DNA of 32,839 bases from a candidate division KSB1 bacterium (GCA_022566355.1 JADFJB010000045.1:1-32839); one strand, 5' to 3'. Positions 4,301-27,236 are shown, counted from the first letter of the stretch. Numbers and translations: made by a program. Notes: generated from the letters alone by a model not told the origin.

Positions 4301-5401
4301 TGGATTCTCTTCGATTTCTTCAGAAGAAAGCCGCCAGCTAATGGCGCCATCCTCTGAAATATATAGATTGGAAGTAAAAGCATTCACTTCCACGGCAGCA
4401 TAAAGCCTGAAAGTATCCGTGGCTGCGATTGCCAGTTCTATCCTTTTCATATCCTCGATACCCGAAGAAGATAGATGCCAAGTCATTCCGCGATTAAAAG
4501 ATTTAATAATTCCCACACTATTTACACAAGCATAAAGTGTATTGAAATTGTGGGGATTGGCGACGATTTGCTGGACCCGGTTTGTACCCGCATCATAGAC
4601 CTGCAGCCAGCTTTCACCACCGTCCGTCGAGAGATATATATGGGAAGTCTTCCACTTATCCGGTCGAAAAAACCCACTATTCACTGCAACCAGTAAAACA
4701 TTTTCATCCGAAGGATCGACGACGATCCGGTTGATGTTTTCAAAATGAAAATTATTTACGAGTTGCTGCCAGGATTCACCACCATCTATGGATTTAAAAA
4801 TCCCATCGCCGGTGATACCGCTAAAATTATAAAATCCCTCCCCGGTTCCTGCGTAGATCACATTGTGATTTGCCGGCGACATTGCCAGAGTAGTGGTTGC
4901 CAGGTTTGGCAAATCCGGGGTTTTGTTAACCCAGGATTTGCCGCCATCAGTGGTTTTCCAAATGCCTCCGCCAACAGATCCGGCAAACCAGGTATTGTGA
5001 GTTGGGTCGCCCGGATGAATGATTAATCCCCGGGTTCTCCCACCTAAATTGCCAGGACCTCTTTCTTGCCAGGGAAGGGTAACGTTTCTGGATTTCGAAA
5101 GAGAATTGGTTTTCTTTGCTTTTTTAAGCTCAAGGATTTTGTAGTTAGCCGGATAACCATGAACGGTTTCTCCTGTTCTCGTGCGGATTTCATTATAAAA
5201 CTGAACAAATTGGTCCGGTTGATCCGGTTTGACTTTGTTTTGTTTTTTGTGATTTTGGAATTTTGTGGGTTTAATTAACGATTCAGAAGCATTGTCTTCG
5301 GTTCCGGATACAGGCGTTTTATTGCTGATCAAATCCAAAGATTCAGCAAGTATGGAAATTCCAATAACTGCTATCAAAATTTGAAAGGATTTCTTCATCA
5401 T
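1334..5401 (-). CDS. large secreted Asp-box (BNR/sortilin-like) beta-propeller protein with type IX sorting domain
   Basis: A 1355-aa secreted protein. A short hydrophobic N-terminus (about 5-20) serves as the export signal. From about residue 110 there are many Asp-box motifs (S/T-x-D-x-G-x-x-W), for example TTDGGKSW, SIDGGESW, STDGGESW, SKDGGTNW, SVDGGLNW and SSDSGETW. They are arranged in two sets split by an insert, typical of sortilin/Vps10, xyloglucanase-like and Ycf48-like propellers. Residues about 1100-1255 look like a jelly-roll adhesion domain ending in WAIDNLKI. The last ~90 residues, from EQNYPNPFNP (about 1268), are a type IX secretion C-terminal sorting domain, so the protein should be exported through T9SS and surface-attached or released. 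Catalysis cannot be inferred; glycan or protein binding is as likely as hydrolysis. It starts at a double ATG without a clear Shine-Dalgarno sequence. Confidence 0.88.
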   Translation of the reverse strand: MMKKSFQILIAVIGISILAESLDLISNKTPVSGTEDNASESLIKPTKFQNHKKQNKVKPDQPDQFVQFYNEIRTRTGETVHGYPANYKILELKKAKKTNSLSKSRNVTLPWQERGPGNLGGRTRGLIIHPGDPTHNTWFAGSVGGGIWKTTDGGKSWVNKTPDLPNLATTTLAMSPANHNVIYAGTGEGFYNFSGITGDGIFKSIDGGESWQQLVNNFHFENINRIVVDPSDENVLLVAVNSGFFRPDKWKTSHIYLSTDGGESWLQVYDAGTNRVQQIVANPHNFNTLYACVNSVGIIKSFNRGMTWHLSSSGIEDMKRIELAIAATDTFRLYAAVEVNAFTSNLYISEDGAISWRLSSEEIEENPNWLAAQGWYNNAIAVHPFDKNIVFFGGLNIWRADFQAHGGIGGTIINVEQNNTASFLSFVDFGTTYANGGLTLVDKDDAMGIDKFDYVSVELRFGPGIKQKAHRFSAPDGPGIPPNSYTYEDYIDVPFQVWDKTNQRQIMVSFRDSDNDMEFNLTSIENNIVGREYIFINSVEYNPDAPDPTIALPGGQIYKNIYFIWPILTSEASWDPENLPESNLFINYGAHLLFKRSTELTSWYEDRPNADHESGFFPFVHADHHNLTVVPIDEVMNQFWIVNANDGGIEISKDGGTNWEKTLNGYNTTQHYGVDKKPGEDIYISGMQDNGTWRSPSNGDEMSQWLEQLPGDGFDVSWHYKNPQKIVASTQFNGIYRSVDGGLNWESSVTGLLDFFPFFTSIAKTNSDPDLLFTTGDRGVWRSDNFSEDWILSAISDKNWRFSNRRLPVKISLADPQIVWAGSQMATNNKLHVSVDGGISFTPVNNYESVMGNITGLATHPTNDSTAYALFSFANSPKILRTTDLGNRWQDISGFHMNTFSNNGFPDVATYSLLVLPHQTNIIWAGTEIGLFESSDSGETWNFSNNGLPAVSIWQMRVVDDQVIVATHGRGIWSVTIPELASYSPPVVTLSPRLNPLSQSLDGQLPININLRSVYDSTHIILNNELFFTLFNTTVLDTTIIVNPKFNGKITATILSFKEGRKYKTSQREIDVLDIKPAQTFYSNDFNTETDDFTGIGFQITTPDGFSDGAIHSLHPYLKSGNISYKLLTPILVQTSNTFLTFDEIVLVEPGDEGSVFGDSNFKDYVIVEGSKKIENWQPLVKGYDARSDSFWLEAYNAKNDGNPALFKNRTINLLDTFSPGDQILIRFRFSSDVSNNGWGWAIDNLKIQEAATSVEITDNVPKFFSLEQNYPNPFNPDTEIQYTLPSSAKITLNIFNITGQKVRTLVAGTKQEKGSYTITWNAKNDHNFDLPSGIYIVRLQADQFVQTQKMTLVR

Positions 5402-11653: not shown

Positions 11654-14095
11654 TCAAAGAAATCGAACAATGACAATCGTGATGTCATCTGTCTGTTGAG
11701 AGTTAGCTTGAAAATTTTTCAGATCATTAAGGAGTAAGTCTTTTAATTCACCGGCTGAACTAAACATTCCATTTTCAACGATATCTTGTAATCTCTCCTC
11801 TCCATAAAGTTCGTGGTTTTGATTCATTGCTTCGGTCAATCCATCGCTAAAGAGTATAAAATAATCGCCTTTATGTAATTTAGTTTGGCGCTCTTCAATG
11901 GATTCATCAAAAATGTTTCCTTCTTCAAGACCTAAACCGATGCCATTGCCAGTCAGCCATTCTGTTGTGTTTTTCCTTTTTATGAGTGCCGGTGAATGTC
12001 CTGCCCGGCAAAAAGTGATTTTATTGAGTTTGGTATCAACCTTAGCCAGGGCCATTGTGATGAAGGATTTAGAGTCCAGGAAGTTGTAAATCCTGCGATT
12101 TACATCCATCAGAAGTTTTTTGGGACTGCTATGAATTTCGGCGCCCATCTGGATCATCCCTTGCACTTTTGACATATAAATAGCCGCCGGCATACCTTTT
12201 CCGGAAACATCTGCAACGAGAAAGAGTAAACGATTTTTTGGTAAAGGAATATAGTCATAGTAATCTCCGCCAACTATACTTGAAGGTAAAGAAATTCCGG
12301 TAATTTCAAGTCCCGGAATATTCGGATCTTCTTTTGGAAGCAATCCTTCCTGGATATTACGAGCCATCACGAGTTCATTCTCAAATGCTTGTTTTCGTAA
12401 ATCTTCCTGATGCAGTCGCGAATTCACAAGAGCGATTGCGGCATTTCCTGCCACTGTTTGCAGCAGATCCAAATCTTCCATACTATAAACCTGACCGGAA
12501 GCTTTTGGCCCAAGTCCGATTAAACCTATCATAGCATCCTGGTAAAACATTGGGACAGACAATACAATTCCAGCTTTCTCAATTTTTACTTTCTCGGAAA
12601 GTGAGAGGTTATTGTAACTTGCATCTTCTTCTATTTTATAAAACAGACAACAAGATTTCTCTTTTTTGATAAGCTCAATAAGGCTGTTACTTCCATCTTT
12701 CCAATTAATTCTGGAGCTCTTTATTCCTTTTGTTTTGAATCGAAGCACATATTGATTGGATTCTTGATCATACAAATTGACCAAAACATTCGTAACCTTC
12801 ATGGCATCGGATATCGTATCTGCTATATGTTTTAAAATGCCCGGCATATCAGTAAAACCCGGCAGATCCTGGCTCAGTTTAAGCAAGGTTTTTTGATATT
12901 GGTATTTGTTTCTATAAAACTGCCGATCGACCAGGTTTTGGATGGCGTTTCTAACCGGTTGAAAAGCAATTGCAACAATTACCAGAAAAATGATATTTGA
13001 AGTTTGGCCGGCAAAACCGAGATTATTTGCCAAATATTCACCCAATTCCATCACAATAAGAAAATAGAGAAGTACAAAAAAACTGGTGAGCATACTGTAA
13101 ACCAGGCTTTTTTTAACAATGATTTCCACATCCATTAGACCATATCGCATGATTGAGTATCCAAACGATATTGGCACAAATCCCATCAATCCAAAAACAA
13201 AAGCGACTGCAGTTTCACCTAAGACATTCACTACGAAATCTGGGAAATAGGCGAAAATGCCTAATGGCATGAATCCTAAAAACATGCCAAATTGTATCAC
13301 TCGAATCGATTTTCGTTCGTGGGGATTGGTGATTTTATGTGAGTTTGAGCCAAGTAAACCGAATGCAGCGAAGAAATAACATCCAATAATTATATTTTCC
13401 AAAATGGATTGTTTGTTGATGAATAGGACATACGTAAATGCCAAAATCGAGGGTAGATAAAAGAGAAAAACAGCCTTGGGATACTTATGTAATAAAGAGA
13501 TTCGTTTTGGAAAATTCATAAAAAAGTGAACCATGGAAGGCCCCCAAAGAATCATACCCGCTGTATGGATTGTAATAATTACATCATGAAATGGTTGATT
13601 GATAGATCTTGAACTGAAGACGAGCATGATGAAAAAGGTCGCTGAGAAAAAATAGAAAAGTCTTGCTGTGCGCATTTCCGGTTTTTTGATAACCACAACA
13701 AAACCAACCAAAAGAAACAACATACCAACCAGATAAAAAAGTACAGGCATTAATCTATTTCGTTGTGCCAATGTAACTACAACGTCAACTTCTTCGCTGC
13801 CTCTACGAATTTTGAATGCTAGCTTGTCGCCAGGTTGGTGTTTATTCCTCCAAGTCAAAAATTGATTGCCATCAAAACCCAGCAGAACATCGTTTACTTT
13901 AATTCCTGCCAGGTCAGCAGCTCCTCCCTCTGTTATATATGTAACTAGAATTTCACCGGTTTCGTCATTTTCCTGCAATCTGAATTCGACTAAAACCTGG
14001 GGATCAAAATGGATCCGGTGTAAAAAATTTGAGGTTGCGGCAATTACTAATAGTATTGTGATCGCGGAGTATAGTATTTTTAACTTGTTACGCAT
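11654..14095 (-). CDS. membrane PDZ-GAF-SpoIIE (RsbU-like) serine phosphatase
   Basis: An 813-aa signalling phosphatase and the last gene of the minus-strand operon. TM1 (about 6-22) is followed by an extracytoplasmic PDZ domain (about 33-110; GGAADLAGIKVNDVLLGFDG). Several membrane helices span about 115-378, then a linker DRQFYRNKYQYQ (390-401), a GAF-like domain (about 405-560), a short coiled coil and a PP2C/SpoIIE domain (575-813). Metal-binding residues are visible in GGDYYDY (609-615), VADVSGKG (627-634), FSDGLTEA (749-756) and DDITIV (803-808), so it should be active. Such enzymes dephosphorylate anti-sigma-factor antagonists in partner-switching pathways. No antagonist or anti-sigma kinase is in the window. 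The PDZ between membrane segments suggests periplasmic sensing of unfolded or C-terminal peptides. Confidence 0.9.
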   Translation of the reverse strand: MRNKLKILYSAITILLVIAATSNFLHRIHFDPQVLVEFRLQENDETGEILVTYITEGGAADLAGIKVNDVLLGFDGNQFLTWRNKHQPGDKLAFKIRRGSEEVDVVVTLAQRNRLMPVLFYLVGMLFLLVGFVVVIKKPEMRTARLFYFFSATFFIMLVFSSRSINQPFHDVIITIHTAGMILWGPSMVHFFMNFPKRISLLHKYPKAVFLFYLPSILAFTYVLFINKQSILENIIIGCYFFAAFGLLGSNSHKITNPHERKSIRVIQFGMFLGFMPLGIFAYFPDFVVNVLGETAVAFVFGLMGFVPISFGYSIMRYGLMDVEIIVKKSLVYSMLTSFFVLLYFLIVMELGEYLANNLGFAGQTSNIIFLVIVAIAFQPVRNAIQNLVDRQFYRNKYQYQKTLLKLSQDLPGFTDMPGILKHIADTISDAMKVTNVLVNLYDQESNQYVLRFKTKGIKSSRINWKDGSNSLIELIKKEKSCCLFYKIEEDASYNNLSLSEKVKIEKAGIVLSVPMFYQDAMIGLIGLGPKASGQVYSMEDLDLLQTVAGNAAIALVNSRLHQEDLRKQAFENELVMARNIQEGLLPKEDPNIPGLEITGISLPSSIVGGDYYDYIPLPKNRLLFLVADVSGKGMPAAIYMSKVQGMIQMGAEIHSSPKKLLMDVNRRIYNFLDSKSFITMALAKVDTKLNKITFCRAGHSPALIKRKNTTEWLTGNGIGLGLEEGNIFDESIEERQTKLHKGDYFILFSDGLTEAMNQNHELYGEERLQDIVENGMFSSAGELKDLLLNDLKNFQANSQQTDDITIVIVRFL

Positions 14096-14134: not shown

Positions 14135-15496
14135 TTATTGGTTAATGAGTTCTTTGACTCCCAATCGATCCATCATTGAATACAGTTTTCTTCTTGTAAT
14201 TCCAAGTAAATTTGCAGCTTTGCTTTTATTCCCTTGTGACTTGGTTATGGCTTGATAGATTAACTCCCGTTCATGTTCATCGAGGTTAATTCCTTTATCA
14301 GGAAGTTCAGAAAAACCTTTTACTGGTTTTTGTGAATGAATGTATAGTGGAAAATGTTCTTTAGATATGGATTGGTCACCACATAAGATTGTCGCTCTTT
14401 CAATGGCATTTTCTAATTCACGCACATTCCCCGGCCAATCATAATTTATGAGAGATTCAAGGGCTGTTGGTTCTATGGTTATAGCTTTGTCTTTGGAAAA
14501 GTTTTTAATAAAGTGATCCACGAGTTCCGGTAAGTCTTCACGTCGCTCTCTAAGAGGCGGTAAAAAAATAGGGAAAACATTTATGCGGTAATATAAATCT
14601 TCCCGAAAACTACCTTCTTTTAAGGCGTCTTCTAAGTTCCGATGGGTAGCTGCTAAAATTCTTGCTTCTAATGAAATTGATTCATTTGCTCCCAACCGTT
14701 CAAATTTTTTGGTTTGAAGAACTCGAAGTAATTTAACCTGGAGACTTGGAGATAGGTCGCCGATTTCGTCCAAAAAAATAATTCCTTTCCCGGCAATTTC
14801 AAATTTTCCTTTTTTAATCCGATCTGCCCCGGTAAATGCACCCTTTTCATGGCCAAATAGCTCGCTTTCCAACAAGTTTTCCGGGATTGCACCACAATTC
14901 ACAGCTATAAATGGTTCATCGGCTCGCGAACTGTTTTGGTGAATTGCCAGGGCAATCAGTTCTTTGCCCGTACCACTTTCGCCTCGAATCAAAATTGTTG
15001 TGTCACCGTTACAAATTTTTTCAACAAGTTTAAAAACATCTTGCATTTTCCCTGAGTTACCGGTAATATTATCAAAATTATAGCGTGTTTTTAGTTGCCG
15101 GCGTAGATCCCGGTTTTCTGTCACTAAACGTTTATTATCCAATAACCTATCCACTCTTAACCGTAATTCCTCCATATCAAATGGCTTGATTAAATAATCG
15201 TACGCTCCGCGTTTCATAGCTTCTACAGCGGTTTGAGCAGTAGCAAAGGCAGTCATCAGAATCACATCTGTGTCCCGGGAGTTTTCTTTAATTTTATCAA
15301 GCAGTTCCAGACCCGTAATTTTCGGCATTTTGAGATCCGTGATAACCAGGTCGTAGTGCTTCGTTTGGAATTGTTTAAACCCTTGCTCACCATCGAAGGC
15401 AACATCAACTTCAACCTGATCCGATTCAAGGCAGGCTTTCAGTATTTCACACATTCTTTCTTCGTTATCAATTACTAGAATTGATCTGGAATCCAT
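14135..15496 (-). CDS. NtrC-family sigma-54-dependent response regulator
   Basis: A 453-aa bacterial enhancer-binding protein. The receiver domain (1-120) has D10/E12 with N11 between, phospho-acceptor D54 in VITDLKMP, T82 and K104. The AAA+ domain (about 144-380) has Walker A GESGTGKE at 172-179, the sigma-54-contacting loop GAFTGAD at 219-225 and Walker B FLDEIG at 241-246, all intact. A Fis-type helix-turn-helix closes the protein (NKSKAANLLGITRRKLYSMM). It should remodel sigma-54 RNA polymerase when phosphorylated by the kinase encoded immediately upstream (14-bp gap). A good AAGGAAA ribosome site precedes the ATG. A sigma-54 promoter is visible at 26486-26501; whether it is a target is unproven. 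Confidence 0.95.
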   Translation of the reverse strand: MDSRSILVIDNEERMCEILKACLESDQVEVDVAFDGEQGFKQFQTKHYDLVITDLKMPKITGLELLDKIKENSRDTDVILMTAFATAQTAVEAMKRGAYDYLIKPFDMEELRLRVDRLLDNKRLVTENRDLRRQLKTRYNFDNITGNSGKMQDVFKLVEKICNGDTTILIRGESGTGKELIALAIHQNSSRADEPFIAVNCGAIPENLLESELFGHEKGAFTGADRIKKGKFEIAGKGIIFLDEIGDLSPSLQVKLLRVLQTKKFERLGANESISLEARILAATHRNLEDALKEGSFREDLYYRINVFPIFLPPLRERREDLPELVDHFIKNFSKDKAITIEPTALESLINYDWPGNVRELENAIERATILCGDQSISKEHFPLYIHSQKPVKGFSELPDKGINLDEHERELIYQAITKSQGNKSKAANLLGITRRKLYSMMDRLGVKELINQ

Positions 15497-15510
15497 ATAT
15501 GATTTCCTTT

Positions 15511-16914
15511 TTAATGATTTTCTACAGGTAGATTAATTGTGATGGTTGTACCATTACCTGGTTGACTTTCAACTTCAATATTACCGCCATGACCCTCTAT
15601 GATTTTTTTTGATACCGGCAGCCCTAAACCGCTTCCGGAGCTTTTCGTGGTATAGAAGGGTTCGAAAATAGCATCTGGATTTTCAATACCCGAACCGGAA
15701 TCAATAATCTGAACCTGGTAAAAATTCTTATGTTTATTGCTTAAGTAATTTGTTTTAATAACAATGTCACCTTCGGACTCTATTGATTGCATTGAATTTC
15801 GAAATAAATTGATCAAAACCTGCTGCATGGCGTCGAGATCAAACGGGAATGGTTCAATTGCTTTTGCATCAAAGTGAAATTTGACCTTACTTTGTTCGTT
15901 ATTGAGTTTCATCTTTTCGATTGTAGCTTCAATCAATTTATTTAAATCATTTTTTTCAAAATTTAATTTAGATTCTTTACCTAGAAGTAAAAAATCATTT
16001 ACCAATTTATTGAGCCGATTTACTTCATCGGGAATATACTGAAACAGTTGGTCCGGCTTCTTTTCATTTTGATACCTGGACTTAAGCACATCGGCAGTCC
16101 CGCGAATAATACCCAACGGATTACGGATTTCGTGAGCAAGCACAGCCGACATCTGGCCCATCATGGCTAGTCGTTCCGATTTTGATAGGGATTCTTGAGT
16201 GCGAATTAACAACCTCAATGCATAAAGGATGAAAGTGACAAACAGAATAAAAATTCCGATACTTACAGTCGCAGTAACAAAGAATGTGTTTTTATACTGT
16301 TCCACTAAATCAAAAAAATAGGCATTGGCCTCGGTTACCAGAATACCCATCGTTTGCCCGGTTAAATTGTGTACTGGTGCATATGCGTTCATGAATCGTT
16401 GATCATTTAAAATGTGAATAGGACTTGCAACCGGAATACCGGACCAAGCTTGTTTAATAGTGGTAGAATCCTCTTTTAAATAGGCATGTGATATGTCAAA
16501 TTCAAAATCTGAATAACTATCAACAATGGTAGTATATTTTGCATCGATAATAAACAAGCCTTCCAATTGATGGGTTTTCTTAATGCTCATTAATTGATCT
16601 TGAATCAGAAGAAGTGTGATTTGATTTTCTTGCCCGAATTCTAAGGATAGTAGCCCTTCATCCTGTAAATTTTTTTCAATTAGATTTGCTGCTAATATCG
16701 CAACTGATTTCAAACGAAGCTCTTGCTCGGACTCAAGTTGCGCTCGCATTTGATTAAGTAAAAAGAAATTGCCTAAATTAAAGATGATCAATAGAACCAG
16801 AAATCCTCCGATGATCATGTAAACTGCAAGTCGTCTCCGTTTTATGATCGATTGAAGCTTCTGAGACCAGGACGCTTGTAATTCCAAATCCTGCTGTATA
16901 GGTTTATTTTTCAT
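15511..16914 (-). CDS. membrane sensor histidine kinase (NtrB-like), partner of the sigma-54 regulator
   Basis: A 467-aa kinase using the ATG at 16914. That start has a GAGGGA ribosome site and overlaps the end of the NYN gene by 11 bp. The frame is open to 16941, but those nine residues lie inside the upstream gene. TM1 is at about 29-53, followed by a ~155-residue extracytoplasmic sensor region (single-Cache/PAS-like, inferred) and TM2 at about 209-235. HisKA follows with the phospho-acceptor H261 in AHEIRNPLG. The HATPase_c has the N box (LINLFRNSMQS), G1 (DSGSGI) and G2 (SSGSGLGL). No HAMP domain is obvious. It should autophosphorylate and transfer to D54 of the downstream regulator. The ligand is unknown. 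Confidence 0.93.
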   Translation of the reverse strand: MKNKPIQQDLELQASWSQKLQSIIKRRRLAVYMIIGGFLVLLIIFNLGNFFLLNQMRAQLESEQELRLKSVAILAANLIEKNLQDEGLLSLEFGQENQITLLLIQDQLMSIKKTHQLEGLFIIDAKYTTIVDSYSDFEFDISHAYLKEDSTTIKQAWSGIPVASPIHILNDQRFMNAYAPVHNLTGQTMGILVTEANAYFFDLVEQYKNTFFVTATVSIGIFILFVTFILYALRLLIRTQESLSKSERLAMMGQMSAVLAHEIRNPLGIIRGTADVLKSRYQNEKKPDQLFQYIPDEVNRLNKLVNDFLLLGKESKLNFEKNDLNKLIEATIEKMKLNNEQSKVKFHFDAKAIEPFPFDLDAMQQVLINLFRNSMQSIESEGDIVIKTNYLSNKHKNFYQVQIIDSGSGIENPDAIFEPFYTTKSSGSGLGLPVSKKIIEGHGGNIEVESQPGNGTTITINLPVENH

Positions 16915-17395
16915 TTCCCTCAGTATTATTGAAAATGTCAACCCAGTTTTGTAATTCGTGTTGACTCATTTCCTCTTGCAAATTAGGCGAGGGGCTACTT
17001 TTTTTTGAATCAAGATATTTGCTGTAAAACTCCTCCGAGCGTATTGCCTGGGCTTTTGCACTTTTAGCGTATTGGTAAACAGAACTGTCAGAAGAGACCA
17101 CAAGTAAATTCTTAGGATTTTTGGATTTGTCCACAAATTGTTTGATAACCGTATCGGCAATTTGAGGTTTGATTGAATAAATAACGTGGATCTTATTAAT
17201 CGATTGATGGCTTGGTTGCCCAACTCGATCGCCATCAAACACCAAACGAATACTTATATTCTTCCGGGATATTAATCCGGTTAGTTTATTGATTAACTCA
17301 ATTCTGGCATGTTGAATATCAATTTTCAAAAACTCACGCAATTCTTTGACTCGGTGAATCAAATTGTATCCGTCTATAATGATGCTTGGTTTCAT
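16904..17395 (-). CDS. NYN-domain (YacP-like) ribonuclease
   Basis: A 163-aa PIN-like NYN domain of the YacP type. The nuclease acidic residues appear in IIDGYNLIH (6-14) and LVFDGD (51-56). Also visible are the ADTVIKQFV helix (about 80-88) and LVVSSDSSV (98-106). The YacP/Rae1 family includes endoribonucleases acting on mRNA, in Bacillus at the ribosome. A charged tail of about 30 residues follows. It is the first gene of a tight operon and overlaps the kinase start (ATGAAAAATAA). No strong ribosome site precedes its ATG. An RNase ahead of a two-component system may be chance co-transcription or real functional coupling. Confidence 0.85.
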   Translation of the reverse strand: MKPSIIIDGYNLIHRVKELREFLKIDIQHARIELINKLTGLISRKNISIRLVFDGDRVGQPSHQSINKIHVIYSIKPQIADTVIKQFVDKSKNPKNLLVVSSDSSVYQYAKSAKAQAIRSEEFYSKYLDSKKSSPSPNLQEEMSQHELQNWVDIFNNTEGNEK

Positions 17396-18031: not shown

Positions 18032-18356
18032 TTTTCTGGTTCACCTCAATATTATTTGCATTGTCTAATTTAAAAGTGTGTTAGAATCGGTGCAACTGTT
18101 TTTACCTCTATTACCATATTATCGTACCTTTAGGTTCATGTGTCTGTACCAAATGGTACATAATTTCTGAGGTTAAATCTATTCAGTTTTATGATATTGA
18201 GCGATTTTGGATAGTTTGTGCTTAAAACAGGGTCACATGAACATTTTTTTAAAGTGGCACAAAGTTTGACTTATGAAAGAGCGGAATAAGTAACACGGGC
18301 CCAAAAAAAGTGACAAGATCATTGAAAAATTTAACAATAAACAAAGGAGAAGAACA
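18032..18356. other. divergent intergenic region between DUF488 and lipoprotein genes
   Basis: 325 bases that must carry promoters for both divergent genes. It contains a small dyad TGTACC-AAAT-GGTACA at 18145-18160, which could be an operator. It also contains a sigma-54-like sequence TGGCAC-N5-TTGA at 18255-18269 whose -12 element lacks the canonical C. A strong ribosome site (AAAGGAGA) precedes the lipoprotein ATG. No ORF or RNA gene is evident. Confidence 0.55.
18145..18160. promoter_or_regulatory. short dyad TGTACC-AAAT-GGTACA, candidate operator
   Basis: Perfect 6-bp arms around a 4-base centre in the divergent intergenic region. Placement between two promoters fits a regulator site, but such short dyads occur by chance and no matching regulator is identifiable. 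Confidence 0.3.
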
Positions 18357-19292
18357 ATGAAAAGGAATATTTGGATTAGAATGTTATTAGCGCCATTAGC
18401 TGTTGGACTATTGTTTGGATGTTCAAAAGATCCATCTTCATTCGATTTGGATTCTGATGAAGAAGCTATAAGGGCATTAATTGAAGAAAATGAAGATTAT
18501 TTTACAACTGCCGGAATCAATGATGACGGCGCTCAGCCACTTGTTTATTCTATCGATGGATTTGGTAAAACGGCAAACCTTATCGATCCACTTCGATTTG
18601 GCCGTAAAGGTAGATTTCAGTTAGAACATCTGTCAATCGACAGAGTCGATGATTCAACTCTTGTAGCCACAATTATAAAATCCTTTAATGGCAATTTCCT
18701 AATTCTCGCTTCGGACACAACAGATTCAGTCGCCCAGGGAATTCTTTATACAAAAGACATGGAAAATGAAATTGTTCGTAAAGCGATATTCAAAAAAAGA
18801 GGAAATAGCGGAGACCGTCGAAAAGACTGGAAGTTGAGAAGAGTATCCGGATCAGAAACGCAAAGCCCTGAGACGACACTATCATTTGTAAATATAACCA
18901 TACAAAACTCCGATGGGCAGGAATGGTCCATTGAAGATCCTCTGGAATTCTTTAGAGACTTGGAAGCTATTCCAACACTGCAACCAGGTGATTCTGTAAA
19001 AGTATTTGCAAAAATTAATAATTCTTCACCATACCTGGAAAAGCCTGGCGAGACTGTTTCGCTGCGATATAAGAATGATCGCCGGATGCGACGCGCAAGG
19101 AAGGGCTTGAATGATGATGGAGTATACCCTGATGAAGCAGCTGGGGATGGAACCTACAGCGGATACTGGGTTGTTGGTCAAAGACGTGGAATTTACCATG
19201 CCTTTGTCGATGCAATCGACAACGGTACTATCTATGATGACCAGCTACAATATAATTCTAAAATATGGGGATTTACCTACATCGTCAAATAG
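18357..19292 (+). CDS. lipoprotein with C-terminal choice-of-anchor-X-like domain, function unknown
   Basis: A 311-aa lipoprotein with leader LAVGLLFGC and lipidated C22. The following acidic stretch (SFDLDSDEEAIRALIEENEDYF) resembles the SnoaL/DUF-like start of many FCB lipoproteins. Residues about 165-310 form a beta-rich domain with the motif LNDDGVYPDEAAGDGTYSGY (about 252-271), then GIYHAFVDAIDNGTIYDD. This D-D-G...AGDGTYS pattern is typical of 'choice-of-anchor X' Ig-like domains on surface lipoproteins. It has a strong AAAGGAGA ribosome site and ends before a strong stem-loop, so it is probably a single-gene transcript. No enzymatic motif is visible. Confidence 0.75.
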   Translation: MKRNIWIRMLLAPLAVGLLFGCSKDPSSFDLDSDEEAIRALIEENEDYFTTAGINDDGAQPLVYSIDGFGKTANLIDPLRFGRKGRFQLEHLSIDRVDDSTLVATIIKSFNGNFLILASDTTDSVAQGILYTKDMENEIVRKAIFKKRGNSGDRRKDWKLRRVSGSETQSPETTLSFVNITIQNSDGQEWSIEDPLEFFRDLEAIPTLQPGDSVKVFAKINNSSPYLEKPGETVSLRYKNDRRMRRARKGLNDDGVYPDEAAGDGTYSGYWVVGQRRGIYHAFVDAIDNGTIYDDQLQYNSKIWGFTYIVK

Positions 19293-19308: not shown

Positions 19309-19337
19309 AGAGGGAGCTTCGGCTCCCTCTAATTATT
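19309..19337 (+). terminator. strong stem-loop terminator after the lipoprotein gene
   Basis: AGAGGGAGC (19309-19317) pairs perfectly with GCTCCCTCT (19322-19330) around a TTCG tetraloop: nine base pairs and an unusually stable loop. The downstream tract AATTATT is only moderately T-rich. It lies 17 bases after the lipoprotein stop codon. Confidence 0.8.
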
Positions 19338-19362: not shown

Positions 19363-19569
19363 ATGACACTTAAATCAGTTAGAAAGTTAAAATCTGCAAC
19401 CATTTTTGTTAAGAGTATTTTTTTTCCATCCGATTTAACGAATAGTTATTCACAATATTCAAATATCTATCTTGAAAGAATCATTCATTATAAATCTACA
19501 AGATTGGCTTTCATATCTGTAAATCAAACTCTTAATTTTTATATTTCATTAAACAAGGAGGTATCATGA
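19363..19569 (+). CDS. 68-codon ORF coupled to the modular surface protein (possible leader peptide)
   Basis: A small ORF with no recognised family. It has a good ribosome site (AGGAG, about 8 bases before ATG), is rich in Ser, Lys, Ile and Tyr, and has no signal peptide or transmembrane helix that I can see. Its final codons carry the AAGGAGG ribosome site of the next gene. Its TGA overlaps the next ATG (ATGA), so the two would be translationally coupled. It lies just after a strong terminator, so it would start the transcript of the surface-protein gene. It may be a regulatory leader or simply a long 5' untranslated region that happens to be open. No homology evidence. Confidence 0.4.
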   Translation: MTLKSVRKLKSATIFVKSIFFPSDLTNSYSQYSNIYLERIIHYKSTRLAFISVNQTLNFYISLNKEVS

Positions 19570-22500
19570 GGCAATTTACTAAATATTTAAACAGTGTCGT
19601 TCTTGCTGTATCCGTATGTCTGGGACTGTTTAATTCGGAAACACCAGCACAGCAACAAACAAATGAAATTTTGGTTATTTCACCGGAAGAAGCGAAAGTG
19701 CCAATCCAGGGAACGGTTCGTTTTCGAGCACAGCTATTTGGAGTTTCAAATTTTACTGCTTTAACTGCCGATCGGATTGATTGGAAAGTAGAGCCTGAAG
19801 ATTTAGGAAGAATAACCGATGATGGCTTTTTTATTGCGGGCAACAAACCCGGTAACGGAGCTATAATCGCGACTGCAATATTATTAAATCGTGAAGTTAA
19901 AGCCAGAGCAAAAATAGTAGTAGGGGAGACCGATGTTGAAGATCGCACCAAACTGGAGTTAATTGTTCAGCCGAAAAAAGCCGCGTTAGGTTTTGGAGAT
20001 TCACTAAGATTCCATGCTAAATTGAGCTATAAGAATAGCGATAAAGTTGTTCCGAATCTACTCGTTAACTGGTTGGTTAAACCGAGGCATATTGGAAAAA
20101 TCAACCAGCGTGGATTATTTGTCGCCGGGAATGATCCGGTTCAGGGCGAAGTGATAGCATATATAGAGTACAATGGAACCAGGATTTTTGGTGGTTCGCA
20201 AGTTGTGGTTGGCAGTCGTCCTAATGCCGCTGCAGCCGGCAGAGTGACAGATGAAAATTCCGGAGAAGGAGTAGAGAATGCAGCAGTTGTGGCTTATCGG
20301 ATAGGCCACGTACGTTGGTCCAGAAGAGTGTTAACTGACCCTGATGGAAATTATTTACTAGAGAAATTGATCCCGGGCAAATATGTACTTTGGGCCAAAG
20401 GTAAAGGATATATCACAGAATATTTTGAGGAAGCTCAAAGCTTTAAAGATGCAACACCAGTGCAGATGGCTGAAAATGACACTGCAAATGGAATTAATTT
20501 TACTATGAATCATGGTGGAGTAATTGCAGGAACGGTTTACAGTAATGTTAACTCATTGCCACTTGCTCATGCGCATGTTAGTGTTTTCGGTAGAAATAGT
20601 TTAGATGTAAATTTAAAACACCATAGTGTAACAGATGAAAATGGGAATTATATAATAGACAACCTGCGTACGGGTGATTATTTGGTTGTAGCTGATAAGC
20701 CAGGTTACCAGCATGAGTTTTTTGATAATGCGGTTAGACCGGATGAAGCGACTGCTGTGCATGTCGAAGTGCCGGATACCACAAATGGAATTGATTTTTC
20801 TCTTTCAATGCATGGCGCCATTTCAGGTCGCGTTATTGTAGATGATTCGACAAACGCCCCCATTAAAGGAGCCATTGTATTTGCCAGGGATTTGAATAAT
20901 TCACGTTCGGATCGTGACAAAAAAGTACGCACAAATGAAAATGGTGAATACTTGTTGGAATTGGATCCTGGCTTTTATTTAATGGGTGTCGAAGCAAAAG
21001 ATTATAATAATGAGTTCTTTGATGATGTTTTCATTCCTGCTCTAGCTACTCCAGTCCAAGTCATAGAAAATGAACATACAGGCGACATCAATTTTGCACT
21101 TCTGCCTTTGAGTACAATGAGTGGTGTAGTAACAGATGGTAATGGCAGTCCAATTGAGAGAGCTTCCGTTTTTGCATATCCAGAAGTCGGCCAGGGGCAT
21201 TCGGTAAAAACCGAAACGAACGAAAACGGGGAATATTTATTAACCGGGTTATATGCCGGCATTTATTTTGTAAAAGCAAACGCTAGAGGATTTCATCCCG
21301 AGTTCTACTTAGAGGCAAAGAGATTAAGCGATGCTACTCCTGTTTCTGTTGGTATAAATGAGCAAATTGGGGATATTGATTTTACTTTAGATGCCGCTTC
21401 TGCAATCGAAGGGATTGTGGTTTCGGAAGATGAAGGAAATCCTCCACTGGCGAGAGCACTGATCATCGCAAAATTGATTGGCGCACCCTTTCAAAGTAAA
21501 GCTTTCTCAAATGATGATGGAAGTTACCGGATTGATAACCTTCCTGCCGGATCTTATTATGTATATGCAATGGCAAGAGGATTTCATCGGGAATTTTTTG
21601 ACAATGCCGTAACTCGTGAAGAAGCTACTGTAGTTGATCTGGATGTGGCAGAAGTCGAAGCCGGTATAGATTTCAGCCTTAAACCTATTCCTGATCACGA
21701 AGGATCTATCAGTGGTTTGGTGACCGCAGATTTAGACAGCTTACCAATCCCAGGCGCAATCGTGGTTGCGGTGGGCGCTCAAAGTGGCCCGCCATTTTTT
21801 GGTGTGACTAGTGCTGATGGACTTTATGAATTAAAGGGTTTACCCAATGGTGATTATTACGTAATGTCTTGGGCCGATGGTTATATTGGCGAATTCTTTG
21901 ATGATGTCCACAATTGGCATAAAGCAACATTGGTGAATGTTGTTTCACCGCATGAGTCATCCAGTATTGATTTTGCCTTGGCCAAAAAACGCAATGGCCC
22001 TTATAGAGTCCGAGGCAAGGTAGTAACACGGCAAAATCAGCCTATTGCCAATGCATTGATATATGCAAGATCTAAGCGTGGAATAGATGGATTTGCAGTT
22101 AGTGATGAAGAAGGTAATTATGAAATCAATGAGATGGCAGCGGGACAAGTTCAGATAATCGCTGCAGTACCCGGATTAAAGCAAAACAACGACAATAATT
22201 TAGCATCGGATGATTCAGTAACCGTTGATTTAAATTCCGGGAATGACAATTATCAAGCAAATATTACGATGGATGGTGATGTCGCAACCGGTGTCGATGC
22301 AATAGATGGCGCGATTCCGGAAACATATGGATTGGATCAAAATTATCCGAATCCATTCAATCCGGAAACTACAATTCAAATACACCTGCCAGTTAGCGGA
22401 GAAGTTACTCTTAAGGTTTATAATTTATTGGGACAGGAAATTGTAACCCTGGCAAACGAGATTCTGGAAGCCGGAAATCATGTGCTAAACTGGAACGGAT

Positions 22501-22613
22501 TGAACAAGTTTCAAACTCAAGTGCCGTCGGGAATCTATTATTATAGAATTCAGGTAAAGAACGGAAAAAATGTCACTTTTGAACAAATTCGAAAAATGAC
22601 TTTACTGAAGTAA
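19566..22613 (+). CDS. modular surface protein: two Ig-like domains, seven carboxypeptidase-regulatory-like modules, type IX sorting tail
   Basis: A 1015-aa secreted protein. The signal peptide is about 1-29 (cleavage near TPAQQ). Two Ig/Big-like domains (about 35-120 and 130-216) each contain a W-x-V-x-P...GxI...GxFxAGN pattern. Seven tandem carboxypeptidase-regulatory-like/SdrD-B-like modules follow: about 224-314, 317-413, 417-512, 517-608, 612-705, 713-805 and 814-902. Six share the ending 'G-[YF]..E[FY]F....ATxVxV......I[DN]F.[LM]'; the seventh lacks the EFFD part. A type IX C-terminal sorting domain starts at LDQNYPNPFNP (about 923). It is probably a long surface-attached rod or adhesin; no enzyme domain is seen. 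An excellent ribosome site (AAGGAGG) precedes its ATG. A hairpin follows the stop. Confidence 0.9.
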   Translation: MRQFTKYLNSVVLAVSVCLGLFNSETPAQQQTNEILVISPEEAKVPIQGTVRFRAQLFGVSNFTALTADRIDWKVEPEDLGRITDDGFFIAGNKPGNGAIIATAILLNREVKARAKIVVGETDVEDRTKLELIVQPKKAALGFGDSLRFHAKLSYKNSDKVVPNLLVNWLVKPRHIGKINQRGLFVAGNDPVQGEVIAYIEYNGTRIFGGSQVVVGSRPNAAAAGRVTDENSGEGVENAAVVAYRIGHVRWSRRVLTDPDGNYLLEKLIPGKYVLWAKGKGYITEYFEEAQSFKDATPVQMAENDTANGINFTMNHGGVIAGTVYSNVNSLPLAHAHVSVFGRNSLDVNLKHHSVTDENGNYIIDNLRTGDYLVVADKPGYQHEFFDNAVRPDEATAVHVEVPDTTNGIDFSLSMHGAISGRVIVDDSTNAPIKGAIVFARDLNNSRSDRDKKVRTNENGEYLLELDPGFYLMGVEAKDYNNEFFDDVFIPALATPVQVIENEHTGDINFALLPLSTMSGVVTDGNGSPIERASVFAYPEVGQGHSVKTETNENGEYLLTGLYAGIYFVKANARGFHPEFYLEAKRLSDATPVSVGINEQIGDIDFTLDAASAIEGIVVSEDEGNPPLARALIIAKLIGAPFQSKAFSNDDGSYRIDNLPAGSYYVYAMARGFHREFFDNAVTREEATVVDLDVAEVEAGIDFSLKPIPDHEGSISGLVTADLDSLPIPGAIVVAVGAQSGPPFFGVTSADGLYELKGLPNGDYYVMSWADGYIGEFFDDVHNWHKATLVNVVSPHESSSIDFALAKKRNGPYRVRGKVVTRQNQPIANALIYARSKRGIDGFAVSDEEGNYEINEMAAGQVQIIAAVPGLKQNNDNNLASDDSVTVDLNSGNDNYQANITMDGDVATGVDAIDGAIPETYGLDQNYPNPFNPETTIQIHLPVSGEVTLKVYNLLGQEIVTLANEILEAGNHVLNWNGLNKFQTQVPSGIYYYRIQVKNGKNVTFEQIRKMTLLK

Positions 22614-22734: not shown

Positions 22735-23037
22735 ATGAAGATCAGATCAATGTTAACCATATTGATGGTTACAAGCCTTACTTGTTTAAATTTGGAGGGA
22801 TGTGCAACACGTGCAGTTTATGTAAAAACAGCGCCACCGGCTAAAAGAGCCGACGTGCGTCCGGCAAGACCTTTTGCCAAAGCTGTTTGGATTGCCGGAT
22901 TTTGGAGATGGAATGGCAACAAATATGTTTGGCTTAAGAGTAAATGGGTAAAACCTCAAAAGGGGTTTAAATGGGTTCCAGGTCATTGGAAAAACTCCTC
23001 CCGAGGATATCGCTGGATTCCGGGACACTGGAAGTAA
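22735..23037 (+). CDS. small YXWGXW-type repeat lipoprotein
   Basis: A 100-aa lipoprotein using the ATG at 22735, preceded by a TTGGAG ribosome site; a TTG four codons earlier is less likely. The leader ends LNLEGC (lipidated C23; Glu at -2 is unusual but tolerated). The mature part is basic and Trp-rich with a repeated aromatic motif: VWIAGFWRWNGNKYVWLKSKW, FKWVPGHWK and YRWIPGHWK. This is the 'YXW.G.W' repeat layout of BcpO-related small lipoproteins. The role of that family is poorly known. It is the first gene of a three-gene envelope run (18-bp and 20-bp gaps). Confidence 0.8.
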   Translation: MKIRSMLTILMVTSLTCLNLEGCATRAVYVKTAPPAKRADVRPARPFAKAVWIAGFWRWNGNKYVWLKSKWVKPQKGFKWVPGHWKNSSRGYRWIPGHWK

Positions 23038-23055
23038 ATAGACAGGAAAAACGAA

Positions 23056-24618
23056 ATGCCTTCTCGATCCCTAATATCACTAATTTCTCTAATCATTTTG
23101 TTATTGTTATTCGCAACATCTATTGAAGCTCAACCCACAGATTTAAGTTCTCGACAATCTATCGAGATTGTAAAGCGTCAATTGAAGTTTCTTATAGATG
23201 TAAACAAGCAATTCCCGAATGATAAAATTGATGATCTTATCCGAAAAATTGAAATACGCATTACTAAAGCGATTCATGCTCACGATAATAAACAGTTCAG
23301 ACTTGTGGCCCTGGAGATACAAACTGCAAAGATACTTATAAATCGAGCGATGACATTGGTTTTAAGAGGCCCTCTAACTATTTTGAAGCAGCAGTTGGAA
23401 GATAAAATTCGGATGGTAAGAAATGTACTGCAAAAAAATTTCCACCAGAATGCACATAAACTTCTGCAGCAGGCACTGAAGAACAAAAATGAAGCTGACG
23501 ATGCAGTTCAACATCGGAATCTTCAGAGGGCAGTAGAGTTTTATCGTATAGCCAAATTCAATATCGATAAAGCTTTTGATTTATTATCGAGGACCGGAGG
23601 GGATAAATTATACACTGCTTACCTGGAGGCAAAGGCCAATTATGAACAATTAATAAACCGAATTCATGGTCTATTAGCAGGAGATCGTAAGTTAGATATT
23701 AGCACTAACAAAGATCAGAAACTTTGCCGTGAATTATACAAACAAGCTTTAAATCAACAAAAACAAGCTGTAGCTGCCTTTAACCGGCGTGAACTCAAAA
23801 GGGCTATTGAACATTATGGCTGGGGCACTAGGCTAACTCTTAGGGCGATTGATGTATGCAAGCCTCCATCCATATCTGATGCACTAAGAAATTTGAGGCA
23901 AGCTGCATTTGAGGAATTGCAGCTAGTAAAAGAATTGATGCAATCTGTAGAGAGGTCGTTGCATGAAAATCCCTTTTCTCAACGAAACAAGTTATATCGA
24001 CAGGCCCAACAGGTATATTCAGATGCATCTCGCTCTTTTGATGTTGGGGATTACTCCCAGGCTGTGCAAAAAATCAGACTGGTAAAACGGATTGTCAGTA
24101 GAGTATCCAAACTGTCTGGCAAAGAGGATGTAAGCAATCGTAACAGGTTTGAGCAAGAATTGGATCTGTTTAACAATTTGCTAAAAAAAATCGAACTTCA
24201 GGTAAAGGACAACCAAAATCAATCCTTTGAAAACATCCTAATAAATGCTCGTCGGTTTTTAGTGGAGAGTCAACATGCATATGCAAGCGGGAATAAAATT
24301 CTTGCCACGGCTAAACTATTTACGGCAACCAAATTTGTACTCAGTGTAAAGTCTCAACTATCCAATGAAGCCCAGGTTGATAACCTCAGGATTGAAGCAG
24401 GCACAGCTTTTGCCAGGTTTGAACAGAAGCATCTTGGTTTGCAAACTCAATTTGGCAGTAGCACCGATCCATTCATTCTTGCCTGGTTTGCGTTGGAATC
24501 AGAAATTTATCAATTGACATTAAATGCTAAAAATTCTGAAAAATATGAAATGGTGTTAGAAAATTCCCGAGTAGGTCTTCAGCTCATTGATCGAATTGAA
24601 AAGCATCAAAAGCAGTAA
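23056..24618 (+). CDS. exported all-helical repeat protein, function unknown
   Basis: A 520-aa protein with a clear signal peptide (about 5-25, ending SIEAQ). The mature part is almost entirely amphipathic helix. I can see about five spaced copies of a helical-pair unit at about 62-101, 135-177, 227-268, 313-354 and 394-435, each with a pattern like 'A....A..A....[DR]..RA...Y..AK..I..A...L'. The period is 80-92 residues. The unit is TPR/SEL1-like in style but matches no repeat family I can name. It is very rich in Gln, Lys, Arg and Leu, with no catalytic signature. It is probably a periplasmic scaffold. A good AGGAAA ribosome site lies 18 bp after the lipoprotein stop. Its neighbours are a lipoprotein and a putative outer-membrane barrel. 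Confidence 0.7.
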   Translation: MPSRSLISLISLIILLLLFATSIEAQPTDLSSRQSIEIVKRQLKFLIDVNKQFPNDKIDDLIRKIEIRITKAIHAHDNKQFRLVALEIQTAKILINRAMTLVLRGPLTILKQQLEDKIRMVRNVLQKNFHQNAHKLLQQALKNKNEADDAVQHRNLQRAVEFYRIAKFNIDKAFDLLSRTGGDKLYTAYLEAKANYEQLINRIHGLLAGDRKLDISTNKDQKLCRELYKQALNQQKQAVAAFNRRELKRAIEHYGWGTRLTLRAIDVCKPPSISDALRNLRQAAFEELQLVKELMQSVERSLHENPFSQRNKLYRQAQQVYSDASRSFDVGDYSQAVQKIRLVKRIVSRVSKLSGKEDVSNRNRFEQELDLFNNLLKKIELQVKDNQNQSFENILINARRFLVESQHAYASGNKILATAKLFTATKFVLSVKSQLSNEAQVDNLRIEAGTAFARFEQKHLGLQTQFGSSTDPFILAWFALESEIYQLTLNAKNSEKYEMVLENSRVGLQLIDRIEKHQKQ

Positions 24619-24638
24619 GCTGTGTTTCGGGCAAGCAA

Positions 24639-26258
24639 ATGAAGTTCAAAATCCCCACCATCTTTTCTATTAAATTCTGGCTCTGCTACTTATCTTTTTT
24701 TGTGTTAATTTCCCAATTTGAATTACCCCCACTTTATGCACAAAGTAGAAATGAAAAAAACAGCGATGAAGAAGTTGTTGATCCGATTCTTAGGTATGAA
24801 ATTCAAAACCTGAATATTGAGATAAGATGGGCGGAGTTTGCATTATATGAAAATTTTGCAGATTTGATTGAATTAAGGCAGTTTAGCAAAGATGCGGTAG
24901 AGAAAGGGGATTACGAGCTTGCGTTAATTTATTTGGATGAAATTATTGAACTTACTGACGAACAAAGCAGTGATTCAACTATCCAATACCAATTAGCAGC
25001 TTTGGATGAATCTTTTGAATTTTCAAAGGATAATTTCACTACTGAGATTGTCTTTGGAATGGATTTTAGTGAGCAGGAGTATAACCTGACATTTGGGCTT
25101 AGTGACAGTACTTTTATCGATAGCCAAAATAATCCATATAGCGGATTTCGTCTTAGATGGGCCAGTTACCAAGCTAACAATTTTAAAGTTGAATTAGACG
25201 GTTTGATGAAAGTGAGCCGTGATTATACGTCCTGGCAAGCTCAATCACAATTTACTAAGAATTTTATTACAGGTTTTGAAATACACTTTGGTCAGGTATT
25301 CGATGGACTTAGCTATAAACGGAGCTTTCCTATCGAGTATTGGCAAAGTAGTTCAAATTTAATTCTTGAGAAGAGATTCGGTGATGATTTGGCGCTATCT
25401 ATCGGGGATGAATTCCAATATAGAAGCTATGAAAATGAATCAGAATCGTTCCCAACATTCCAGAAAAACGAATTTCAAACTGTGTTAAGAGCTTCGGATT
25501 TTTTAAATAGTCGGTTAACTATAGATTTCACCATTGATCAAAGGATTCAAAAAACATTTCAACTTTATGATTATGTAGATCGGAGGTTCAGTATTCAACA
25601 CTCATTTAATTCTTCATTGAATACCTCTTTTTTAGGCTGGTACCAATTTCGGGATATGAAATATACACAAGTAAACTCGGATTCCTCGTTTTTAACAGAT
25701 TTCCGACAGCATTTTATTACCTTAAATGTAAGTCAAAGTCTAATTAGGTCAGTCTCATTAAAACTATCAGGAGAGGTAATACTTCGAGATCATCCCGAAA
25801 CCTATTTATATACACCGGATTTTACTTACCTGAGATTTGAACCCGGTTTTTTATTTGACCTTTCGAACCAACTCAATTTGGGTATCAATTATATTCTCGA
25901 ATCAAAAGAATATAAAAAGAATGAGGTTCAGCAATCGAATTTACTCATCAGTCAAAATAAATTATCCCAGGGTTTATTGTTGTCCCTGGATTTTTTCAAT
26001 TATAAAAACTTGCTTTGTAGTTTGAGCCATACATTTATGTTTAATTCCTATCCCGATGCAGGTGATGAACCTATCCCGGGCTTTAGCCTTTACACAAATC
26101 GATCCCAAAATAGTACATTATTGTATCTATCCTATCAAGTAATAGATCCGCTTGAAATTACTTTGGTCATGCAATATGACTTGGACAAAGATCGCGAAAT
26201 TAAGCACAATGATTCTCGCAGTTCTATATTCTCTTTGGATATAAATTGGAAATTCTAG
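24639..26258 (+). CDS. putative outer-membrane beta-barrel protein with short helical N-terminal region
   Basis: A 539-aa exported protein. The signal peptide covers about 1-35 (ending PLYAQS). A short helical segment (about 47-110; 'LRQFSKDAVEKGDYELALIYLDEIIELTD' split over two TPR-like helices) precedes the barrel. From about 125 onward, alternating polar/aromatic strands dominate (for example FRLRWASYQ, FEIHFGQVFDG, LALSIGDEFQYRSY, LRFEPGFLFDL). The protein ends in SIFSLDINWKF, a terminal-Phe beta-signal for BAM-mediated insertion. No named porin or transporter family is recognised. It is the last gene of the envelope run, 20 bp after the helical protein, with a weak ribosome site. The helical N-terminus could dock on the preceding helical-repeat protein (inference). 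Confidence 0.75.
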   Translation: MKFKIPTIFSIKFWLCYLSFFVLISQFELPPLYAQSRNEKNSDEEVVDPILRYEIQNLNIEIRWAEFALYENFADLIELRQFSKDAVEKGDYELALIYLDEIIELTDEQSSDSTIQYQLAALDESFEFSKDNFTTEIVFGMDFSEQEYNLTFGLSDSTFIDSQNNPYSGFRLRWASYQANNFKVELDGLMKVSRDYTSWQAQSQFTKNFITGFEIHFGQVFDGLSYKRSFPIEYWQSSSNLILEKRFGDDLALSIGDEFQYRSYENESESFPTFQKNEFQTVLRASDFLNSRLTIDFTIDQRIQKTFQLYDYVDRRFSIQHSFNSSLNTSFLGWYQFRDMKYTQVNSDSSFLTDFRQHFITLNVSQSLIRSVSLKLSGEVILRDHPETYLYTPDFTYLRFEPGFLFDLSNQLNLGINYILESKEYKKNEVQQSNLLISQNKLSQGLLLSLDFFNYKNLLCSLSHTFMFNSYPDAGDEPIPGFSLYTNRSQNSTLLYLSYQVIDPLEITLVMQYDLDKDREIKHNDSRSSIFSLDINWKF

Positions 26259-26484: not shown

Positions 26485-26501
26485 TTGGCACACTCATTGC
26501 A
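26485..26501 (+). promoter_or_regulatory. sigma-54 (-24/-12) promoter of the orphan response-regulator gene
   Basis: TTGGCAC-ACTCA-TTGCA matches the sigma-54 consensus TGGCAC-N5-TTGC exactly. GG lies at 26487-26488 and GC at 26499-26500, giving the required GG-N10-GC spacing. The predicted start is near 26511, leaving a ~45-base leader with a good ribosome site before the ATG at 26556. About 230 bases of AT-rich non-coding DNA upstream could accommodate enhancer sites and DNA bending. Confidence 0.85.
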
Positions 26502-26555: not shown

Positions 26556-27236
26556 ATGGAAAACGAAAGAATATTAATTGCACTGCCCGAGAATGAGAAT
26601 AAAAATTCTGTAAGCAGAATATTGAGACAAAAAGGGTACGACGTTACCTTTAAGCGTAAAGGGCAAGAAGTATTGAATTACGTTAAAAATGATCTTCCGC
26701 TTGTCATCCTTATGGATTACAATCTGAAAGGTAAAAACGGTTGGGAGGTTAGCAAAGAATTAAAGAGCGACCAACTGACTCAAAATGTTGGTGTCATACT
26801 CCATTGTGAAATCAACGAGGAGAATGAAATAATACATGCATTTGAAATGGGCGCAGACGACGTCATTCATGCGGAAAATTCTGTTCGAGAAATTGTAGCC
26901 AGAGTAGACGCACTTATCAGAAGATTGAAGAATGGGCATAATTGTATCAAAGTTCAAGATCTTGAAATTGACCTGGATGCTCATCGAGTAAAGAAGGATG
27001 GAGAACCAATTGACTTAACTTATATTCAGTTCAAATTGCTCTACTTATTAGCATCACGGCGGGAAAGCATTTTTTCTCGTACTGAAATCCTAGAAAGAGT
27101 TTGGGGCAAAAAAGTATATGTCACGAATCGTACTGTTGACGTTCATATTAAAAGATTAAGAGAAAAGCTAGGCGAAATTCGTTATCCATCTAACTACATC
27201 CAGACGATACATGGCGTGGGATATCGATTTATCTAA
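26556..27236 (+). CDS. OmpR/PhoB-family response regulator with degenerate receiver
   Basis: A 226-aa two-domain regulator. The C-terminal winged helix (about 128-226) is canonical: IDLTYIQFKLLYLLAS, RTEILERVWG, NRTVDVHIKRLREKL and TIHGVGYRFI. The receiver keeps the aspartate D54 (LMDYNLKGKNG) but has lost its usual partners. The acidic pair after strand 1 is replaced (ILIALPENEN instead of 'ILVVDDE'). The strand-4 Thr/Ser is replaced (GVILHCE). The strand-5 'KP' lysine is missing (DVIHAENS). Phosphorylation by a kinase is therefore doubtful, and it may act as an atypical, constitutively active or ligand-controlled receiver. No kinase adjoins it. It is driven by a sigma-54 promoter and closed by a terminator. 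Confidence 0.9.
   Translation: MENERILIALPENENKNSVSRILRQKGYDVTFKRKGQEVLNYVKNDLPLVILMDYNLKGKNGWEVSKELKSDQLTQNVGVILHCEINEENEIIHAFEMGADDVIHAENSVREIVARVDALIRRLKNGHNCIKVQDLEIDLDAHRVKKDGEPIDLTYIQFKLLYLLASRRESIFSRTEILERVWGKKVYVTNRTVDVHIKRLREKLGEIRYPSNYIQTIHGVGYRFI

Follow-up and report, generated by a model that had tools for sequence, protein, structure and literature searches.

A 32,839-nucleotide stretch of DNA from a bacterium of candidate phylum KSB1 (GCA_022566355.1 JADFJB010000045.1:1-32839), hereafter the window, carries a cassette of exported-protein genes that is conserved in KSB1 and Calditrichota. KSB1 is also named Zhuqueibacterota (PMC11683472). The conserved proteins are c7, a lipoprotein, c0, a helical periplasmic protein, and c1, an outer-membrane beta-barrel. 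A further protein, c2, is a surface protein of the type IX secretion system (T9SS) type. The lead gene of the cassette lies under a predicted sigma-54 promoter that has its own dedicated palindromic enhancer, and the sequence indicates that the cassette encodes outer-membrane and periplasmic proteins whose production is induced by a signal.

An earlier note on this DNA described three open reading frames (ORFs) at 22735-26258 as an envelope gene cluster. Their positions, strand, gaps and export signals are as that note gave. The limits that it drew are incorrect: the unit begins at 18357 and takes in c7 and c2, and promoter and enhancer elements are found at 18123-18270. The sigma-54 regulation, which the note overlooked, is a new finding.

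A gene cassette shared by two phyla

Absences must be read with caution, because most of the genomes analyzed are incomplete assemblies from metagenomes. c0 was found in 57 of the 82 KSB1 genomes and c1 in 46; in the second phylum, a scan detected c0 in 29 of the 40 Calditrichota genomes. Profile comparison gave 100% probability of homology between the phyla for both c0 and c1. The trees of both proteins split the two phyla cleanly, as vertical descent predicts. In nearly all Calditrichota loci c7, c1 or both adjoin c0, in the order c7-c0-c1 or c0-c7-c1, amid variable housekeeping neighbors. Among curated places in KSB1, a single contig carries both c0 and c1 in 24 genomes; the two are 42 bp to 6.4 kb apart, and c2 occupies the wider gaps. 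The pairing of the c0 and c1 genes across two phyla bears out the proposal of an undescribed conserved envelope gene set. Searches of the open-access literature found no account of the c0, c1 or c7 families or of the enhancer dyad, which is weak evidence.

c2 is closely tied to c1 in KSB1. A strong c2 match is present in 62 of the 82 genomes, paralogues counted, and c2 lies on the same contig as c0 in 36. Both c1 and c2 occur in 44 genomes, neither in 34 and one only in about 4, and this holds even when they are not neighbors. The tabulation omits a partial c2 beside c0 in genome G068; c2 without c1 occurs in three genomes, not two. The co-occurrence (Fisher p 3e-18) is indicative only, since kinship among the genomes makes them non-independent. 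Only eight KSB1 genomes (families f1, f2, f3, f4 and f7) have c7, together with c2. This distribution is consistent with c2 having joined the cassette in KSB1 and with a later loss of c7 in most families.

Two other neighbors of the cassette were observed. At three loci of families f14 and f20 (L078, L085 and L197), c0 occurs without c1 or c2 and adjoins a conserved protein of about 735 residues, and a separate role of c0 is possible there. A LiaF-TM-type membrane protein (PF22570, 36.5 bits, cut-off 27; L065:10650-11333) usually follows c1 in KSB1. It stays beside c0 where c1 and c2 are lost (L083 and L097), and is missing at the equivalent place in the window.

Promoter and enhancer of the lead gene

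The matrix used to score sigma-54 sites was derived from the general consensus, not from cassette sites, and a threshold of 9 was applied. Of 54 lead genes, 41 have a site that reaches the threshold, a far higher proportion (p=2e-25) than among non-lead cassette genes (4 of 100) or other genes (12 of 204). Column-permuted matrices found at most 4 of the 54 lead genes. The promoter in the window scores 9.1, near the threshold. At locus L093 the promoter, TGGCACGATGTTTGAG, is located 96 bp before c7, a position that matches that in the window. Searched with a simple sigma-54 pattern, 1 Mb of cluster DNA gave 28 matches, of which 18 lie upstream of c0. When the window alone was searched with one mismatch allowed, only a site at 26486 was returned, which is not above chance; the cassette promoter emerged only through comparison.

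Enumeration of dyads upstream of the promoters identified TGTAC-N6-GTACA in 22 loci, compared with a maximum of 2 in shuffled sequences. When up to one mismatch is allowed, the 1 Mb of cluster DNA contains 45 copies of the longer form TGTACC-N4-GGTACA, and 41 of these are in regions upstream of lead genes. Two of the other four overlap a c0 start that is likely mis-set (L092); the remaining two stand before a c0 gene at the end of a contig (L193) and before a c2 gene (L199). Permuted half-sites gave a mean of 2.1 copies. In both phyla the dyads are often tandem, with a spacing of 22-24 bp, and located about 90-120 bp from the -24 box. Tandem sites at this distance are the classical layout of NtrC-type enhancers. 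The window contains a single perfect copy, accompanied by a degenerate one (Table 1).

The dyad enrichment is not an independent test because the motif was discovered in the same regions. A 1.2-Mb sample (26%) of the window's own genome is independent. No other regulatory dyad was found in it, and its single copy with at most one mismatch is inside a nuoL-like gene. RpoN is encoded in this genome, with the box ARRTVAKYR near the C-terminus of the ORF (L307).

A second predicted promoter is located after the barrel gene. The site at 26486-26501, TGGCACACTCATTGCA, is a perfect sigma-54 promoter 70 bp before a response regulator of the OmpR/PhoB type (26556-27236). The orthologue of this regulator at L094, beside c1, has TGGCACGTCTCTTGCA at 69 bp. 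There is no enhancer dyad at the 26486 promoter, and a different activator may act on it.

The cassette proteins and the candidate activator

c0 consists of six homologous units, each about 75-85 residues long. In an all-against-all profile-profile comparison, 15 of 15 unit pairs align over 65-77 columns with a probability of 96-99%; the highest values for reversed and shuffled controls were 69% and 0.5%, respectively. The earlier note had proposed about five copies of a helical unit of about 85 residues. The comparison confirms the repeat, and the count is six. An AlphaFold2 model from the single sequence has 18 helices after or including the signal helix, which we read as six groups of three, with a mean predicted local distance difference test (pLDDT) score of only 51. 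Because the model is weak, structural results are only hints. It has no Foldseek match at E<=0.001, and the window c0 has no Pfam match above cut-off. The units are reminiscent of the three-helix MIT, DUF357 and DUF4398 folds: family members match these weakly (1e-7, 1e-5 and 0.008, respectively), and one unit matches locally in structure with a target TM-score of 0.64-0.76. Unlike these folds, c0 has six tandem units in an exported protein. Searches of PDB sequences with c0, c1 and c7 profiles returned only generic helical, tetratricopeptide repeat (TPR)-like or chance matches. The charge of c0 (isoelectric point 9.8) is opposite to that of c1, c7 and c2 (about 5).

c1 has a signal peptide, about 20 amphipathic strands predicted from the family alignment and a nearly invariant C-terminal residue, Phe539. 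AlphaFold2 without an alignment gave no usable model of it (pLDDT 30). The N-terminal hairpin matches the combined profile of the c0 units at 89% probability (reversed controls, 2-7%) and resembles the second half of the unit. In addition, the profile of the Calditrichota homologues matches the TPR region of FKBP8 (E=0.001). Both matches support the helical N-terminus that had been suggested for the barrel. No Pfam family matched c1 or c7 above cut-off.

The lipobox cysteine of c7 is invariant in 28 of 28 aligned members. The choice-of-anchor X domain (NF041940) is found in the window c7 at 36.3 bits (cut-off 25) and is matched by 6 of the 28 members. c2 is composed of an Ig-like N-terminus, seven CarboxypepD_reg repeats and a T9SS type A sorting tail (TIGR04183). 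The T9SS translocon protein SprA (TIGR04189) is encoded in all 82 of the 82 KSB1 genomes, including that of the window, and c2 is very likely exported by this system. A second T9SS-type sorting tail (SLEQNYPNPFNP...) is found in the window at the end of an exported 1355-residue protein (1334-5401, minus strand). Directly 3' of the c7 stop codon is a strong 9-bp stem-loop, AGAGGGAGCTTCGGCTCCCTCT (19309-19330), which might attenuate or partly terminate transcription ahead of c2.

The YXWGXW lipoprotein, which the earlier note counted as a cluster member, is real and always adjoins the cassette, although it is an accessory found at eight KSB1 loci, with c2 on one side and c0 or c1 on the other. 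It matches PF12779 at 34.8 bits (cut-off 18). The orthologues have the lipobox cysteine in 8 of 8 and share the N-terminal signature C-A-x-R-x-VYVR-x-APP. A motif and hidden Markov model scan of 1 Mb of loci found none away from the cassette. In the window, the gaps are 18 bp from this gene to c0 and 20 bp from c0 to c1.

The candidate regulators are an NtrC-type activator and a sensor histidine kinase (14135-16941), about 2.9 kb from c7 on the opposite strand. In six other KSB1 loci, a similar activator with a closely similar recognition helix is located upstream of c0, at a distance of 229-1478 bp. Against TIGR02915 the activator in the window reaches 417 bits, below the cut-off of 502.6. 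The activator and kinase also resemble ZraR/ZraS and AtoC/AtoS, below the equivalog cut-offs. A gene for a PDZ-GAF-SpoIIE phosphatase protein (11654-14095, minus strand) adjoins the pair.

Table 1. Positions of the cassette genes, their regulatory elements and the candidate regulators in the window
Feature	Position	Strand	Remarks
NtrC-type sigma-54 activator, candidate regulator	14135..15496	-	
Sensor histidine kinase paired with the NtrC-type activator	15511..16941	-	Synteny in L069 and L088
Degenerate enhancer dyad CGTACCTTTAGGTTCA	18123..18138	+	2 mismatches to TGTACC-N4-GGTACA; 22 bp before the perfect dyad
Perfect enhancer dyad TGTACCAAATGGTACA, putative sigma-54 activator site	18145..18160	+	110 bp 5' of the -24 box
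Predicted sigma-54 -24/-12 promoter TGGCACAAAGTTTGAC	18255..18270	+	102 bp 5' of the c7 start
c7, acidic lipoprotein (Cys22) with C-terminal choice-of-anchor X domain, core	18357..19292	+	
c2, 1015-residue surface protein, KSB1-specific partner	19566..22613	+	TIGR04183 48.2 bits, cut-off 23
YXWGXW (WXXGXW) lipoprotein, accessory	22735..23037	+	PF12779
c0, basic (pI 9.8) exported protein with six tandem three-helix units, core	23056..24618	+	
c1, acidic outer-membrane beta-barrel with N-terminal periplasmic helical hairpin, core	24639..26258	+	

Possible functions and comparison with known systems

We tentatively favor, at somewhat less than even confidence, a signal-induced outer-membrane platform that would anchor or display a surface protein, working in a PorP-PorE-like manner outside that family. 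The histidine kinase would sense an envelope or external signal and phosphorylate the NtrC-type activator. The activator would bind TGTACC-N4-GGTACA and allow sigma-54 RNA polymerase to open the promoter, so that the cassette is made as a unit. The acidic barrel c1 may dock via its periplasmic helical hairpin onto the basic six-unit rod formed by c0, with c7 sitting in the outer membrane next to both. The platform would anchor or display c7 in Calditrichota and T9SS-exported c2 in KSB1, where c2 largely replaces c7. Gene linkage, complementary charge and the shared helical element suggest that c1, c0 and c7 belong to one complex. A role of this complex in displaying or anchoring a surface protein is suggested by the co-occurrence of c1 and c2, by the T9SS tail that c2 carries and by the anchor-type domain found in c7. 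sigma-54 has been linked in general to processes of the bacterial exterior and envelope (PMC3162934).

Several observations weigh against such a platform. Family f14 and some others keep c0 but have neither c1 nor c2, and in KSB1 families f16, f20 and f23 c1 is located apart from c0. Therefore the parts are not strictly obligate partners. Scattering of the genes in relatives, which the earlier note had named as evidence against its cluster, is thus seen in part, with the barrel apart in these three families and several genomes having c0 without it. In nearly all Calditrichota loci the cassette has no c2 next to it, and display of c2 therefore cannot be the ancestral role. In the window, the gap between c7 and c2 is 273 bp and contains the strong stem-loop, so the two genes may not share one transcript. 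The NtrC protein neighboring the cassette in Calditrichota has a different recognition helix, and therefore may not bind the shared dyad. Finally, T9SS type A substrates in Porphyromonas are anchored to anionic lipopolysaccharide (A-LPS), not to a barrel (PMC9143113).

A different function, which we consider rather unlikely, is an inducible device for envelope stress or maintenance that repairs the membrane and does not display a protein. In it c0 would be a periplasmic chaperone or a rod binding lipid or lipopolysaccharide, c1 an induced channel or lipid conduit and c7 their outer-membrane partner. The general link of sigma-54 to envelope processes (PMC3162934), the likeness of the regulators to ZraR/ZraS and AtoC/AtoS, even though below the equivalog cut-offs, the strongly basic c0 and the LiaF-TM-type protein that usually follows the cassette in KSB1 and stays with c0 when c1 and c2 are lost are all in its favor. 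It leaves unexplained the near-perfect co-occurrence of c1 with T9SS-tailed c2 in KSB1 and the anchor-type domain of c7. Export of an exopolysaccharide, with the barrel as secretion pore and the helical protein as scaffold as in AlgE-AlgK or PgaA, would fit the architecture and the PilZ gene near some loci; it is improbable, since no synthase or polymerase gene is found beside the cassette in the inspected loci of the two phyla. That unrelated envelope genes are adjacent by chance is scarcely credible. The unlinked c1 of families f16, f20 and f23 agrees with it, whereas the linkage seen in both phyla and the dedicated promoter and enhancer common to them oppose it, and for c0, c1 and c7 in Calditrichota it is already refuted.

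The layout of a helical N-terminus, a barrel and an adjacent lipoprotein, together with a weak SlipAM match of one c1 member (E=0.0085), raises the possibility of Slam-like export, which we regard as unlikely. The sole c1 match to PF04575 is below the cut-off, while other KSB1 proteins exceed it. None of the 23 Calditrichota c1 members matches SlipAM, c1 is kept in most KSB1 families without c7, and its roughly 20 predicted strands outnumber the 14 of the Slam barrel. We rejected c1 as a member of the Slam/type XI family, the PF04575 search having given one c1 at 16.9 bits (cut-off 22). The KSB1 proteins above the SlipAM (PF04575) cut-off are about 390 residues long and occur in 14 genomes (L277-L282), outside the groups with described type XI secretion; only the C-terminal part of the model is covered in them.

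Returning to the platform, we consider it possible, if doubtful, that the cassette encodes a new stand-alone machine for signal-induced display or export. This would comprise three undescribed families (a six-unit rod, a large barrel and an anchor-domain lipoprotein), be older than the divergence of KSB1 from Calditrichota and have a dedicated sigma-54 activator with the cassette as its main or only target.

Two phyla known almost wholly from metagenomes share this envelope cassette, and its regulatory DNA is as conserved as its proteins. Naming a candidate regulator, its putative binding site, a promoter and partner proteins provides a handle on the cell surface of both phyla. In KSB1, a sigma-54 signal appears to be tied to a surface protein that is very likely exported by the T9SS and co-occurs with a barrel, which bears on anchoring outside Bacteroidota.

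Three known systems are comparable. The sigma-54-dependent PEP-CTERM/PrsK-PrsR regulons (PMC9850573) also use a two-component NtrC-type activator and RpoN to drive surface protein genes. The activator here misses the TIGR02915 cut-off, and the cassette showed no PEP-CTERM protein. Slam (DUF560) type XI secretion (PMC8406197, PMC9090332) similarly combines a periplasmic helical N-terminus, an outer-membrane barrel and an adjoining lipoprotein. However, c1 is outside PF04575 by the curated cut-off, its predicted barrel is larger and the helical protein is separate, with six units.

The nearest functional analogue is PorE-PorP with a C-terminal domain (CTD) protein, from the T9SS of Bacteroidota (PMC9143113). 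Like the cassette, the PorE-PorP-type B CTD and SprF-SprB systems combine an outer-membrane barrel, a periplasmic protein associated with the outer membrane and a surface protein that bears a CTD; the genes for barrel and surface protein are linked, and KSB1 too has the T9SS. The differences are that c1 has no PorP/SprF match, c0 lacks the PorE architecture, c2 has a type A tail, control is by predicted sigma-54 elements and the Calditrichota cassettes have c7 and usually no adjacent c2. For the PorP/SprF family, no Pfam match was found at E<=0.1 for the window c1 or any of 49 c1 members, and no NCBIfam match for the window c1. The protein families of the cassette are undescribed, yet its layout resembles known surface-anchoring complexes.

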